In this document: piece after piece, positions 6,001-23,942 of the stretch | Position numbering within the stretch: the stretch's first letter is position 1 | How the letters are laid out: every line of letters begins with the position of its first letter | Origin: a virus | IMG/VR virus record: IMGVR_UViG_3300020465_000068 | Span: 1 to 29,038 of that record | Direction: 5' to 3' (one strand) | DNA length: 29,038 nt | Notes under the pieces: generated by a model | What the model was told of the DNA's origin: nothing | The model's input: only the letters and a program-made list of their open reading frames with translations | The model's database searches: none | Program-made: the position numbers and the translations under genes

Positions 6001-7519
6001 TAACGATTCTTTCTCTGCTTGGCAATTTGGTCAATTTGATTATATTGATTCTATTAAGAGTTTACAAGATGGATCTAGAAAAAGATTTGAATTAAGATAT
6101 GATAATGAACTCTTAAGTTTCCAAGTTCAGGAAGGAACTAGTTTTGCTGGTGTAAATCTTGCAAATGCTTTATTAATTGTTGCAAATGGTGTAATACAAG
6201 AACCAGGTGTTTCTTATCTCTTTGATGGAGGTACATCCTTTGCATTTATAGAACCACCAAAACCAGAAGACGAAATTTCCATATTCTTCTATCGTGGAAC
6301 TTCTGGATCCGATACTGAATTAGTAACAAATGTATATCCATCTTTAAAAGTAGGAGATACTGTTCAATTAGATAAAATTTTAAATAGTGTTCAAAATCAA
6401 CAGTCTCGTGTAGCTACTGCTATTACTGCTACTGATATTATAGAAACTAATTTATATAAAGGAGTAGGTATTACAACTGAAGAAAAATCATTAAATTGGA
6501 CAAAACAAAAAGTAGATAGAATAATAAATGGTGAAGTCGTTTACAAATCTCGACCTTCTTTAGAACCTTTAATATTCCCTACTGCAAAAATTATTGGTAG
6601 TCTTAAATCTACAGATACTGAAATATTTGTTGATGATGCTGTATTCTTTGATGAAGAAGGGGAAATTTCAGGATCGTCACCAATTAGTGGAAGAATAGTA
6701 GATAACAGTGTTACACGGGTTTCTGCTGCCATTACGGCTATTGTATCTACTGCAGGTACTATTTCTTCACTTGACATTGTAAATGCTGGTAGTGGATATA
6801 TAGGGGCAACCACTTCTGTATCAATAGGAATTCCTACTACAGGTATTGGAACTACTGCAAATCCAACAGCAACAGCAACAGCAACTATAACTGGTGGTTC
6901 TATTAGTACAACTACCATTACTGCTTCAGGATTTGGATATACAGCAACTGCTGTTCCTAATGTTTTAGTAACTCTTCCTACATTTACTTCTGAATTGATT
7001 GGAAATATTACTTCTGTTAAAGGTTTCTCTGGAATTATTACTGGAATTGGTACAACCACAGGTGATGGCGTTCCATTAGCACTCAAATTTAGTTTGTTTG
7101 CTTCAAGTTATTCCGACTTAAATATCAATTATCCCATTTATATTACTAATACTACTGTAGGAACAGGAGTTACTTCAATATTTGATTCTGATAGTGAAGT
7201 GGTTGGTATTGGAACAACTTTCTTAGATAATATTTACAATATTAATCATATATGGAATTCTGGTACTGCTGGAATTATTACATGTAATATAAAATCAGAT
7301 ACTACGGTAACGGGATTATCAAGTACTGGTAGTTCTATGGATGCAATTGGTAGATTTTCGTGGGGTAGACTGGGTGGTTCATTCACAAGAGGCACTGAAC
7401 CAGTATCACTCGGAGTAACTGGATTAACTATCAATTCTGGACTGACCACTTTCCCAACAATTCAACGTAGATCAAGTGGATTGAGAGATACTGGAGCTTT
7501 GGATCCATTCTATTCATAA
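2..7519 (+). CDS. Giant virion structural protein in gp7 position (5'-truncated by window edge)
   Basis: This is the C-terminal 2505 residues of a very long protein. The frame is open back to base 2, so the GTG at 32 is not a supported start and the true start lies upstream. The sequence is rich in Ser, Thr, Gly, Ile and Asn and poor in Cys, with dozens of short VGIGTT/VGFGST-like motifs and several G-x-G-Y...P repeats (near visible residues 357, 435, 1897, 2264 and 2311). An EYMKV...VERGFIGS stretch (about 1403-1450) and an NGVIQEPGVSYLF stretch (about 2055-2092) resemble modules that I recall from large cyanophage tail proteins. It lies directly before gp8, where T4 carries gene 7 (baseplate wedge, 1032 residues). 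A baseplate or peripheral tail role is therefore inferred from position; I see no specific gp7 signature. A fibre-like decoration of the baseplate is the main alternative. Confidence 0.8.
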   Translation, partial: STFTLPSTLYVSDKSANRIGIKTGIGTMFSDVYFRSGGDNFDNYTFESNYLQVTGKVERIKTTVSLSTSHNLKRDDIIDLNIKPNLSVGIGTSTAVVLQRQDSTGYILVNPIGFNSTGINTITNELTLSSHALTTGDKIAYSADLFPSGISSTSYYVYKVDENTIQLSATSVDVNSNPPVTVGFGSTGGVDQIISQVNPQLSTLKNNNLVFDLSHSSLKDYEFKLYYDNEFKNEFVSTASTIFDVVGFGTVGISTNATSTINYDNTLPQKLFYNIEKSGFISTTDTDSPNYSEIIFTDSSYISSYSIIGVGDTTFDVSLKEIPEKLSYNPSECDSLEYTTSSLTAKGGINNVSILSGGINYQKLPNFVGSSSTEGTGGSIVAKSTNVGNSNKVRIINEGFEYSSDKTLQPSAYISPLIVIENSNTVGIITVTSGGNNYIIPPLIKIINPTTREIIKNGLLEAVLTNTTISSVDPIVLPSGLPSGGIELFAIQNTNGVSISTISSNSTGIFTCFINTPSAGFGTAPFKVGDEVFVENIVQYDPVSVGGSGFNSPDFGYRFAKVSAYTVAATGSNDSVTIDLAGISTNTGIAVTDQSNIPSLINKINYPTFVSNLVPSFFNTGEKIISNDIERDLIITSTESDYIKVSGTYRLSVGEIITGKDSGTTATINNITENFGRFSVNYMVKKDIGWSDDIGSLNLDTQVTPNNDYYQNMSYTVQSTRTFDQLRSPVSSLLHTSGLKNFANTGITSTSLVGIGSTDFSISVQDIIGDNRVDTVYNYAYALDLGSGNSSNAIKTPNKVFTAYTLAKSNEVLKIDNIKDQFSNLSSDLTDYLNILQIDSNISFKNILFRISNLDNTDVQLTELVLLNNGSNSILLQKGDLEDEGPIGSFDIESTGLGENYLRFTPLPNSLDFDYDIKSLELDFLSNTGIGTQSLGFINLTGAVGIATVDSVLGVTTSSIISVDSTKYNSLHVKTHLVNQTTSQMNYVELYVTHDGTDTYIADYYVDTHSEVTSYSETLMGSFKGDLTGSIFSLQYVNNLTDEIKYSSSVVGFGSTSSGTDTYRFSSPSEPVGSERSLIYQSNYVVGVGTTTAVILDKSLFNASKSIVEVSVGSTRAVHQLMMNHDGTDVYIQPGPILSNAGDIEVDTRLGIGTFGAEYVSNDFVLKFYPETEFITDNIQVSSLNEVLYTENDFSNSSNVPDLTYGSAVQSFNLYSFNAPNGSRINKSNFVLKSNNTPIFAKIFNPADSTVIALSDTKFNIDNHFFRTDEELIYTPRSTFVGVGSTPMLYQSSTGAIDQLPSSVFAIRDSADTFQISTTRGGSAVTFVGIGTGNAHQFEMAKSNTKSIITIDNVIQSPIAFVPLSYTLENNTDDASTGISTTRTIFSLSGISSLTSSDIIKIDNEYMKVINVGVGETTVGPIVGIGTTNLVEVERGFIGSASTNHTNSSTINLYRGSYNIDGEEIWFTDPPKGNPQLIKNSSNLNYATSDFGGRVYLRDNYDTNQVYDDISDQFTGIGETYTLTNTGVNTVGLGTTGGNGLLLISNIFQSPTADNNPSNNFQVQEDISSGISSVRFTGIRTSSDDPVIISDIDVNQNELPRGGLIISLGSTPGLGYAPAVGARAYLEKDSNGIITNVVGIATTGPAISITTSTYNNETGVLQITTQEAHNFEAGIIAQVKLAGLAFTCPDGSGITTTIFPESPVGFGSTSIDYSILSIGSTNTFTTNVGVSTIPHTYNSGGSVMPWYGNATIGSGYTGSTISIGVTDVSYIHTFVSGVSTTLYVTSWSGTPLTATSASYLPTSGDLTLTIPSHGLTTSDNVGIRTNSLVFKCSKDDYATDHYYPRPTDPVAGLITSINSYDTDTLTVNVGASVGSGAEVTATVGAGGTLSFAIGAGGTNYTNPYLDIPEASYTNLSVTGVSRLGIGATTDTGVGLLLNVEVSASSTVSGASTYFEVPKWEIARDGYAFKKGDVFTPVGLVTDASLSSPIVPFELTVLDTYNDSFSAWQFGQFDYIDSIKSLQDGSRKRFELRYDNELLSFQVQEGTSFAGVNLANALLIVANGVIQEPGVSYLFDGGTSFAFIEPPKPEDEISIFFYRGTSGSDTELVTNVYPSLKVGDTVQLDKILNSVQNQQSRVATAITATDIIETNLYKGVGITTEEKSLNWTKQKVDRIINGEVVYKSRPSLEPLIFPTAKIIGSLKSTDTEIFVDDAVFFDEEGEISGSSPISGRIVDNSVTRVSAAITAIVSTAGTISSLDIVNAGSGYIGATTSVSIGIPTTGIGTTANPTATATATITGGSISTTTITASGFGYTATAVPNVLVTLPTFTSELIGNITSVKGFSGIITGIGTTTGDGVPLALKFSLFASSYSDLNINYPIYITNTTVGTGVTSIFDSDSEVVGIGTTFLDNIYNINHIWNSGTAGIITCNIKSDTTVTGLSSTGSSMDAIGRFSWGRLGGSFTRGTEPVSLGVTGLTINSGLTTFPTIQRRSSGLRDTGALDPFYS
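4799..4827 (+). other. Inverted repeat / possible mRNA hairpin inside giant gene
   Basis: CCGAGAG at 4799-4805 is the exact reverse complement of CTCTCGG at 4821-4827. It could form a 7-bp G/C-rich stem, extendable by G-U pairs, with a loop of 9 to 15 bases. It lies wholly inside the giant structural gene and has no U-tract after it, so it is not a typical terminator. It may be chance, or it may be a local mRNA structure. Confidence 0.35.
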
Positions 7520-21776: not shown

Positions 21777-22196
21777 ATGTCTAGTTATGATCCTATTGAT
21801 GAAGCACTTAATACTAAAAGTGATATCATAAAGGCAGATGCTCCTGCTAAGGTTGAAGTATCCCAAAAACCTGATGAGGTTAAAAAGGATTATGAATATA
21901 GTCGTGCTAATTTATATTCCTTGATTGAAAAGGGTCAAGAATCTCTTAATGGTATAATGGAAGTAGCAGGTGAAACTGCAAGTCCTAGAGCTTATGAGGT
22001 TGCTGGTCAAATTCTTAAGTCAGTTGCTGATACTACTGATAAGTTGATGGAACTTCAGAAAAAAGTTAGAGAAGTTGATGAAGAGATGAATAAAACTACT
22101 AATAATGTTACTAATAATGCTGTGTTTGTAGGATCTACAACTGAGTTATCAAAGATGCTGAAAGATGGATTTCTAAATAATAATAAGAAATCTTAA
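21777..22196 (+). CDS. 16: Small terminase subunit gp16
   Basis: This encodes a 139-residue, mostly helical protein; T4 gp16 is 164 residues. The small terminase forms a ring that recognises DNA ends or concatemers and stimulates the ATPase of gp17. The central YSRANLYSLIEKGQESLNGI stretch, then SPRAYEVAGQILKSVADTTD and LMELQKKVREVDEEM, give the helix-turn-helix pair and coiled coil typical of T4-like small terminases. The C-terminus (VFVGSTTELSKMLKDGF) fits the usual gp17-contacting tail. Its place between gp15 and gp17 is decisive. The N-terminal ~30 residues are charged and probably flexible. Confidence 0.88.
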   Translation: MSSYDPIDEALNTKSDIIKADAPAKVEVSQKPDEVKKDYEYSRANLYSLIEKGQESLNGIMEVAGETASPRAYEVAGQILKSVADTTDKLMELQKKVREVDEEMNKTTNNVTNNAVFVGSTTELSKMLKDGFLNNNKKS

Positions 22197-22205
22197 GTAA
22201 ATCTT

Positions 22206-22277
22206 ATGACAACTCCATGCGACTGTAAGGGATGTGGATGCGATCCCTGTATAAAATGTGGTAAATCACACCATTAA
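22206..22277 (+). CDS. Cysteine-rich micro-protein, metallothionein-like candidate
   Basis: This is a 23-codon reading frame in the 96-base gap between gp16 and gp17, starting 9 bases after the gp16 stop. Its product has six cysteines in 14 residues, in the spacing CxCxxCxCxxCxxC (residues 5, 7, 10, 12, 15 and 18), and ends with a His pair (residues 22-23). Such density suggests binding of zinc or another soft metal, like a minimal metallothionein or zinc knuckle. The ribosome binding site is weak (no GGAG), so translation would probably depend on coupling to gp16. The stop falls just before the GAGGA that serves gp17. Support comes from the striking composition, neat fit in the gap and correct strand. 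Conservation in other phages would be decisive, and I could not test it. Confidence 0.55.
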   Translation: MTTPCDCKGCGCDPCIKCGKSHH

Positions 22278-22292
22278 TTGAGGACTTAGATT

Positions 22293-23942
22293 ATGGCTTC
22301 CAATGAGATATATTTGGGTAATCCCAATTTAAAGAGGGCTAATACTCAACATGAGTATACTGAAGAGCAGATAATAGAGTTTATGAAATGTAAACAGGAT
22401 CCTGTTTATTTTGCAAGAAATTATATTCAAATTGTTTCTCTGGATTATGGATTAGTAAAATTTGACATGTACGATTTCCAAGAGAAATTGATTGAGAGAT
22501 TTCATGAACATAGATTTAATATATGTAAGATGCCACGACAGACTGGTAAGTCTACGACGTGTGTGTCTTATTTACTGCATTATGCAGTTTTTAATGATAA
22601 TGTAAATATTGCTATTCTTGCAAACAAGGCATCTACTGCTAGAGATTTGTTAGGTAGGTTACAACTGGCATATGAAAATTTACCTTCATGGATGCAACAA
22701 GGTATAATCTCTTGGAATAAAGGTAGTTTAGAATTGGAGAATGGTTCTAAAATATCCTCAAACTCTACCTCATCATCTGCTGTTCGTGGTGGATCTTATA
22801 ACGTTATATTCCTTGATGAGTTTGCATTCATTCCAAATCACATTGCCGATGATTTCTTTGCATCAGTTTATCCTACAATTACATCTGGTCAATCTACTAA
22901 GGTTATTATAGTTTCTACCCCACGGGGTATGAATCATTTCTATCGTATGTGGCACGACAGTGAGAAGGGAAAGAATGAATATGTTCCTACTGACGTTCAT
23001 TGGAGTGAAGTTCCTGGTAGGGATGCTGTGTGGAGAGAACAGACTATTGCAAATACTTCTGAGGAGCAATTCAAGATTGAGTTTGAGTGTGAGTTCTTAG
23101 GATCTGTTAATACTTTAATTGCTGCAACTAAACTTAAAAATCTTGTATATGAGGAACCTAAAAAGAGAAATGCAGGTCTTGATATTTACGTAGATCCAAT
23201 AAAAGATCACAATTATATAATTACCGTTGATGTTGCCAGAGGATTGGGTAATGATTATTCAGCTTTCCTCGTTTTTGATATAACAGAATTTCCATATCAA
23301 GTCGTTGCCAAATATAAGAATAATGAAATTAAACCAATGCTATTTCCTAATGTTATTTTGGATGTGGCAAAAGGGTATAATGAAGCATATTTATTGATAG
23401 AGGTAAATGACATAGGAGATCAAGTAGCAAGTATTCTTCAATATGATTTGGAGTATGAGAATCTCTTAATGGCGACAATGAGAGGTAGAGCAGGTCAAAT
23501 AGTTGGGCAAGGTTTTTCAGGTAAGAAAACTCAATTGGGAGTTAGAACAACTTCTGCTGTTAAAAAATTGGGTTGCTCCAATTTAAAGACTATGCTTGAG
23601 GATGATAAAATACTTTTATGGGATTATGATATTATTTCAGAATTAACTACATTTGCTCAGAAACATAATTCTTTTGAAGCAGAAGAAGGTTCTAATGATG
23701 ACTTAGCTATGTGTCTGGTTATATTTGCATGGTTATGTGCACAGGACTATTTTAAGGAGATGACTGATAATGATGTTCGTAAAAGAATATATGAAGATCA
23801 AAAAAATCAGATAGAACAAGACATGGCTCCCTTTGGATTTATTGCAACTGGATTGGAAGATGAGAGTTTTGTAGATAAGGACGGAGATACATGGCATGTA
23901 GACGAATATGGGGATAGATCTTACATGTGGGATTATCAATGA
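22293..23942 (+). CDS. 17: Large terminase subunit gp17 (packaging ATPase-nuclease)
   Basis: This encodes the 549-residue DNA-packaging motor; T4 gp17 is 610 residues. It docks on the gp20 portal, pumps DNA into the prohead with ATP, and cuts the concatemer. The N-terminal ATPase has a Walker A-type RQTGKST (residues 82-88, Lys86), Walker B VIFLDE (171-176, Asp175 and Glu176), and a coupling-type VSTPRG segment shortly after. The C-terminal RNase H-like nuclease shows the acidic residues expected for metal binding: Asp313 in TVDVARG, Glu370 in LLIEVND, and the Asp pair in NDDLAM (469-470). The frame is intact, with no intron or intein. A GAGGA lies about 8 bases before the start. It ends in WDYQ, followed by a 73-base gap holding the gp18 late promoter. 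Confidence 0.96.
   Translation: MASNEIYLGNPNLKRANTQHEYTEEQIIEFMKCKQDPVYFARNYIQIVSLDYGLVKFDMYDFQEKLIERFHEHRFNICKMPRQTGKSTTCVSYLLHYAVFNDNVNIAILANKASTARDLLGRLQLAYENLPSWMQQGIISWNKGSLELENGSKISSNSTSSSAVRGGSYNVIFLDEFAFIPNHIADDFFASVYPTITSGQSTKVIIVSTPRGMNHFYRMWHDSEKGKNEYVPTDVHWSEVPGRDAVWREQTIANTSEEQFKIEFECEFLGSVNTLIAATKLKNLVYEEPKKRNAGLDIYVDPIKDHNYIITVDVARGLGNDYSAFLVFDITEFPYQVVAKYKNNEIKPMLFPNVILDVAKGYNEAYLLIEVNDIGDQVASILQYDLEYENLLMATMRGRAGQIVGQGFSGKKTQLGVRTTSAVKKLGCSNLKTMLEDDKILLWDYDIISELTTFAQKHNSFEAEEGSNDDLAMCLVIFAWLCAQDYFKEMTDNDVRKRIYEDQKNQIEQDMAPFGFIATGLEDESFVDKDGDTWHVDEYGDRSYMWDYQ

Follow-up and report, generated by a model that had tools for sequence, protein, structure and literature searches.

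A 23-codon frame between gp16 and gp17

The interval between the terminase genes gp16 and gp17, hereafter the slot, varies in length among relatives of the virus studied here, from 3 nt to more than 4 kb, and in this virus it contains a very short, cysteine-rich open reading frame. The question raised by this locus is whether such a frame is a gene at all and, if so, what kind of peptide it encodes and to what use the phage could put it. The window, i.e. the whole 29,038-nt IMG/VR virus fragment that was analyzed, has a terminase region nearest to those of Synechococcus and Prochlorococcus myoviruses. On its plus strand, gp16 (21777..22196; terminase small subunit, 139 aa; phrog_445, E 4.5e-51) and gp17 (22293..23942; terminase large subunit of 549 aa, with PF03237 and PF17289 scoring above their cut-offs) border a slot of 96 nt (22197..22292, plus strand), as delimited in a census of distinct loci. 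The initial annotation had described there a frame with six cysteines spaced CxCxxCxCxxCxxC and a terminal His pair, and this was confirmed: the Cys-His minigene (22206..22277, plus strand, ATG to TAA with both codons included) encodes MTTPCDCKGCGCDPCIKCGKSHH, with Cys at positions 5, 7, 10, 12, 15 and 18 and a C-terminal His-His. It starts 9 nt after the end of gp16 and its stop codon lies 15 nt before gp17. A GAGGA sequence (22280..22284, plus strand) that begins 3 nt past the stop is, as read from the sequence, the likely ribosome-binding site of gp17, and TGAG(A/G) is kept in the minigene relatives. Neither a promoter nor a terminator was found in the gp16-gp17 gap of the window, and the RNA of the gap showed no unusual fold (z +0.62).

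It had also been argued that six cysteines are unlikely to occur by chance in a neighborhood poor in this residue. The poverty of the neighborhood is real, as gp16 has no Cys in 139 residues, gp15 none in 260 and gp17 seven in 549, compared with 26% Cys in the window peptide. The argument from chance stood only in part. A third-order Markov model of the window, preferred because a dinucleotide shuffle that yielded zero Cys-rich ORFs looked too strict, produced 0.05 ORFs per window with at least six Cys in 14 residues, but four other, non-genic frames of the real window reach the same density. These lie at 6142 and 24624 on the plus strand and at 6910 and 25137 on the minus strand, and none of them is a recognized gene. 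Composition alone is thus no proof of a gene, and Cys density alone is a poor gene test in this window.

The evidence that does bear on gene status comes from relatives. Thirteen distinct nucleotide alleles were found in other contigs, every one of 23 codons and with an identical stop. The minigene contigs had been fetched by gp17 or gp16 similarity or by the Cys pattern. As retrieval by that pattern in itself ensures that it appears conserved, we also assembled a motif-blind sample of contigs, fetched by a DNA pattern for the gp17 N-terminus alone. In this sample, all nine loci with a gap of 91-97 nt carried an intact frame with all core residues, and neither these loci nor the 13 alleles included a decayed or frameshifted copy. 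A first selection test had used motif-fetched loci, which are biased at the ligand codons, and was repeated on loci retrievable without the motif. Among the nine distinct motif-blind alleles, 25 of 45 inferred changes were synonymous, against an expected 24% (P 6e-6), and none of the 45 altered the residue at any of the seven ligand codons (P 1.6e-6), both P values being approximate since changes were counted on a minimum-spanning tree; the ligand codons of the minigene alleles do show synonymous drift. The initial annotation had proposed to look across relatives for a kept frame and Cys spacing with synonymous excess. Of the observations that it held would count against the gene, one Cys is lost in some alleles and the gene is absent from two close relatives (L151 and L167), whereas no frameshifted copy was found. 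Because the frame is conserved, and not because of its composition, we consider gene status settled: judged by its pattern of substitution, the minigene is a real protein-coding gene under purifying selection.

The conserved Cys-His core

Alignments and the codon table delimit a conserved module, CDCKGCGCDPCIKCGKSHH (22218..22274, plus strand), whose probable ligands are C5, C7, C10, C15, C18, H22 and H23; C12 is not conserved. The shared core follows the order CxCxxCx4CxxCx3HH, with five Cys and two His, and the conserved unit can be written CxCxxCGx[DN]PC[IV]KCGK[SN]HH. Constant positions are Cys5, 7, 10, 15 and 18, His22-His23, Gly11, Pro14 and Gly19, part of this invariance being by construction, as many alignment rows were fetched by a pattern requiring those residues. 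Cys12 is replaced by Lys in L003 and by Gln in four other alleles, which bear an extra Cys3 instead. With its core Cys, Pro14, Gly11, Gly19 and His pair in register, the window peptide belongs to a slot module of T4-like cyanophage contigs with the general form CxCxxCGx[DN]PCxxCGx[SN]HH. The location between gp16 and gp17 is shared by the window and all minigene contigs, and by most of the cases described below in which the module is embedded in a longer protein. In the embedded modules of L143, L145 and L147, the place of His22 is taken by Cys, the kind of exchange that metal ligands are expected to show.

We compared the module with known families. The bare 23-mer had no match in PHROGs, Pfam or named phages (tblastn), a search in which the BLAST low-complexity filter may hide it, and the module fell into no family of Pfam, PHROGs or solved structures. 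Rabphilin-3A, the sole match in the profile search of solved structures, was not meaningful (E 0.43). The bacterial metallothionein profile (Pfam Metallothio_Pro) matched neither the window peptide nor any of 42 module members at E values up to 10, and in place of the conserved many-Cys array of those proteins only five Cys are constant here. The metallothionein-like spacing proposed in the initial annotation is therefore not upheld, since Cys12 is Lys or Gln in relatives and no metallothionein family matches, and the label should be given up unless it is borne out by metal-binding data. The IBR half-RING domain (PF01485) matched weakly in 26 of the 42 members (best E 0.0031); in the one from L008 the score was 14.9 bits against a cut-off of 24.3 and the match covered residues 39-61 of a 65-position profile, and the members checked neither exceeded the Pfam cut-off nor spanned the full domain; this likeness is most likely a convergent spacing of ligands. 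For an embedded module of 39 residues AlphaFold gave no confident fold, with a mean pLDDT of 66.5 and no secondary structure assigned. Metal binding is the natural reading, because of the invariant Cys pairs and His pair, the exchange of His22 for Cys and the weak IBR likeness, and the module probably binds zinc.

Long slot proteins, slot history and the phage head

In other cyanophage-like contigs the Cys-His module lies inside modular proteins of about 170-900 residues. We found it embedded in 34 distinct contexts, the majority in the gp16-gp17 slot (L005, L008, L073, L086, L090, L105, L107, L109, L128, L134 and others), and one named isolate, Synechococcus phage S-SCSM2R, carries it there in protein SSCSM2R_117. 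Other examples come from contigs with neither terminase gene (L091, L092, L097, L098, L108 and L114). Because it sits in long slot proteins, the module is a domain rather than a metal-storage peptide that arose by itself. The motif was absent by exact pattern, which would miss divergent copies, from 84,980 prokaryote genomes, and a host origin of the module is consequently not supported.

The embedded module is flanked by [ILVFM]xE. Of 26 contexts, 24 have this motif at most 10 residues upstream, where 3.1 would be expected, and 23 have it at most 6 residues downstream, against an expected 1.6; the P values of these counts are overstated, as the motif was picked with the sequences already in view and many contexts are related to one another. 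These flanks look like T4 prohead-protease sites; the [IVL]xE on the downstream side could instead simply belong to the module. Outside the slot, the module proteins of L092, L098, L108, L114, L121 and L127 adjoin ORFs with targeting-type N-termini. In L092, L108, L114 and L127 the module protein has MPQGISPNPLNKLSQIYLSQIVES or MSQGISANPLNPLSQIYLSQIVEA as its N-terminus, followed at once by the module, and is encoded immediately downstream of an ORF whose start, MKGFSRFLVEAE or MKLFTRFLTEAG, is capsid-targeting-like.

Across the distinct loci of the census the slot was found in several states: empty, with a gap of 3-13 nt and no gene; occupied by the Cys-His minigene (91-97 nt); occupied by another small ORF with SDWR (about 131-185 nt); or filled by long modular proteins (250 to more than 4,000 nt). 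The SDWR mini-ORFs have about 40-55 codons of the form EDSVKIEDANGNLAFEVIDVIKP...SDWRxEL (L155, L161, L173, L153, L174, L185, L183, L029, L158, L198, L200, L203, L211 and L227), and the SDWR segment recurs as a repeated linker in long slot proteins. The slot of S-SCSM2R also contains a gene annotated as NblA (phycobilisome degradation; L137 6908-7075), which indicates that host-directed genes enter the slot as well. The slot protein of L139 (3440-5473) ends in DUF6321 (PF19846; E 8e-20), as does SSZBM1_192 in L232, and the two share other small Cys-containing modules (KCxxGYYYC... and CYHKVKSRYSVWPSAYASGALVKCRK).

In a gp17 tree, the eight rows with the Cys minigene form one group with a single empty-slot row (L167) nested inside, and the nearest neighbors of the group include contigs with the embedded module. 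On this tree the minigene reads as having one origin and one loss. In L151 and L167, from which it is missing, only ATT is left of the gap ahead of gp17, as a clean deletion could have produced, and the minigene is thus dispensable in at least one lineage. Given that the tree is quick and has moderate support at the key node, we only infer the direction from long protein to minigene.

Several observations in relatives connect slot proteins with the phage head. SSCSM1_29, a modular slot protein of S-SCSM1, is labeled a virion protein in its record, and the virion proteins of that phage were identified by mass spectrometry on CsCl-purified particles (PMC9602691). The virion proteome of S-SZBM1 includes SSZBM1_190 and SSZBM1_195, both of them slot products (PMC9146016). 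These three virion-detected proteins lack this exact Cys-His module. In T4, residues 4 and 7 of the targeting sequence direct capsid targeting and residues 8 and 10 direct cleavage (PMC9026906); the N-terminus of T4 IPIII is MKTYQEFIAEA (read from AF158101). Slot ORFs of relatives often begin in a similar manner, with MKTFKQFMSES (S-SCSM1_30), MKSFKSFLSES (S-SZBM1_191) or MKTFKQYITEA (S-SZBM1_192), and keep positions 4, 7, 8 and 10 in kind, and many ORFs of the MKSFQQFLSES type lie upstream of gp17 in relatives. The 707-aa slot protein SSZBM1_194 (L232 13253-15376, minus strand) contains, in mid-protein, the sequence FITYREFIAEG, which reproduces the targeting and cleavage site of T4 internal proteins almost exactly. 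Unlike those slot ORFs of relatives, the window peptide has no N-terminal capsid-targeting sequence, as it starts MTTPCDCKGC, and it has no protease site.

Possible role and comparison with known systems

The minigene is an overlooked microprotein gene of an undescribed module family. As to its role, the reading that we tentatively favor, at somewhat less than an even chance, is that it encodes a free metal-binding microprotein that is the single-module form, or relic, of a locus for head-internal cargo. In T4-like cyanophages the slot would house a variable cargo locus that supplies head-internal, probably ejected, proteins, and the 23-residue product, most likely a zinc binder, would represent this locus with a single module. 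The prohead protease would cut the long slot proteins beside the module, and the minigene clade would have lost all but the module. The peptide would be a late product, its translation coupled to that of gp16 and gp17, and would fold round one or two Zn ions via its five Cys and two His. The long versions suggest that the embedded module performs its job as part of head-internal, possibly ejected, proteins; the free peptide might do the same job either in the head, which it would reach by passive inclusion, or, while packaging is under way, in the cytoplasm. Head entry of the free 23-mer is the weakest step of this proposal, because the peptide has no targeting sequence. It is tempting to go further and to regard the interval as a cargo dock for head-packaged, protease-trimmed polyproteins built of exchangeable mini-modules, with the window encoding a naked zinc peptide that would be delivered with the DNA and act on the host cell, a bolder version that we consider doubtful.

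Two other functions could be assigned to the product itself. A zinc-dependent accessory of the packaging motor, which would bind gp16 or gp17 and tune terminase assembly or activity in the cytoplasm, would be co-made with its partners from a gene lying exactly between theirs with short spacers on both sides. We regard it as unlikely: the close relatives L151 and L167 do without the minigene, unrelated modules fill the slot elsewhere (NblA in S-SCSM2R, a structural protein in S-SZBM1), and the module also occurs in proteins of contigs with no gp16 or gp17 nearby. A true metallothionein-type buffer, taking up Zn, Cu or Cd during infection, would agree with the Cys content, the CxC and CxxC motifs, the His pair and the short free form of the peptide, and a sixth Cys is retained in some alleles, placed at C3 or at C12. 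That sixth Cys is, however, not conserved, no metallothionein family was matched even at E 10, and embedding in long virion-type proteins suits a structural zinc site better than storage, which makes a buffer decidedly unlikely. The initial annotation had further speculated that the peptide might shield the packaging motor from metals, adjust gp16-gp17 ratios or provide a virion enzyme with metal.

Alternatively, the product might not matter. As a leader or coupling ORF, the frame would set gp17 expression through its translation, and a Cys-rich leader could sense Cys-tRNA; its very small size, its start 9 nt past gp16 and its end 3 nt before the likely gp17 ribosome site fit such a device. 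Selection at the amino-acid level combined with synonymous changes in the ligand codons, homology of the product to a protein module, the ordinary RNA fold of the gap (z +0.62) and the expression of gp17 without the minigene in relatives all speak against it, and we deem it improbable. Finally, the existence of the long form in related phages and of a clean loss nearby would be expected if the minigene were merely what remains of a long slot protein, decaying and without function, but the constant length and stop in 13 of 13 alleles, with no frameshift, a synonymous excess and unchanged ligand residues, render this highly improbable. The selection test and the module homology disfavor both the leader and the remnant.

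In a search of the accessible literature on phage metallothioneins and cyanophage capsid-targeting sequences nothing relevant was found. With the present analysis, the core and the location of an undescribed and widespread module of marine phages become defined, and a testable role can be proposed for it. A gene of 23 residues is below the size that most annotation pipelines call, so the minigene form has probably been missed in other genomes. The gp16-gp17 interval of cyanophages, in turn, offers a lead to a counterpart of the T4 internal-protein genes, which include those of ejected anti-restriction proteins.

Among known systems, the cyanobacterial metallothioneins SmtA/BmtA bear an outward resemblance to the window peptide. 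SmtA is small and Cys-rich, with CxC and CxxC motifs and His, all traits of the window peptide, which differs in being shorter, in its variable sixth Cys and in occurring also as an embedded domain. The IBR half-RING zinc domain has similar closely spaced Cys pairs followed by His, but the likeness is below cut-off in the members checked and extends over a 23-residue stretch only. With the T4 internal head proteins (IPI, IPII, IPIII and Alt) the resemblance lies in the nature of the locus, as variable small cargo, and in the form of the targeting N-terminus shared by slot ORFs of relatives; the window peptide differs by having no targeting sequence, and the T4 internal-protein genes lie elsewhere in the T4 genome. 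The modular slot proteins of cyanophages occupy the same place, and SSCSM2R_117 and many metagenomic ones hold a homologous Cys-His module, whereas SSCSM1_29 is a slot protein like SSCSM2R_117 without this exact module. These proteins combine several modules, often behind a leader, in about 170-900 residues, whereas the window encodes the bare module.
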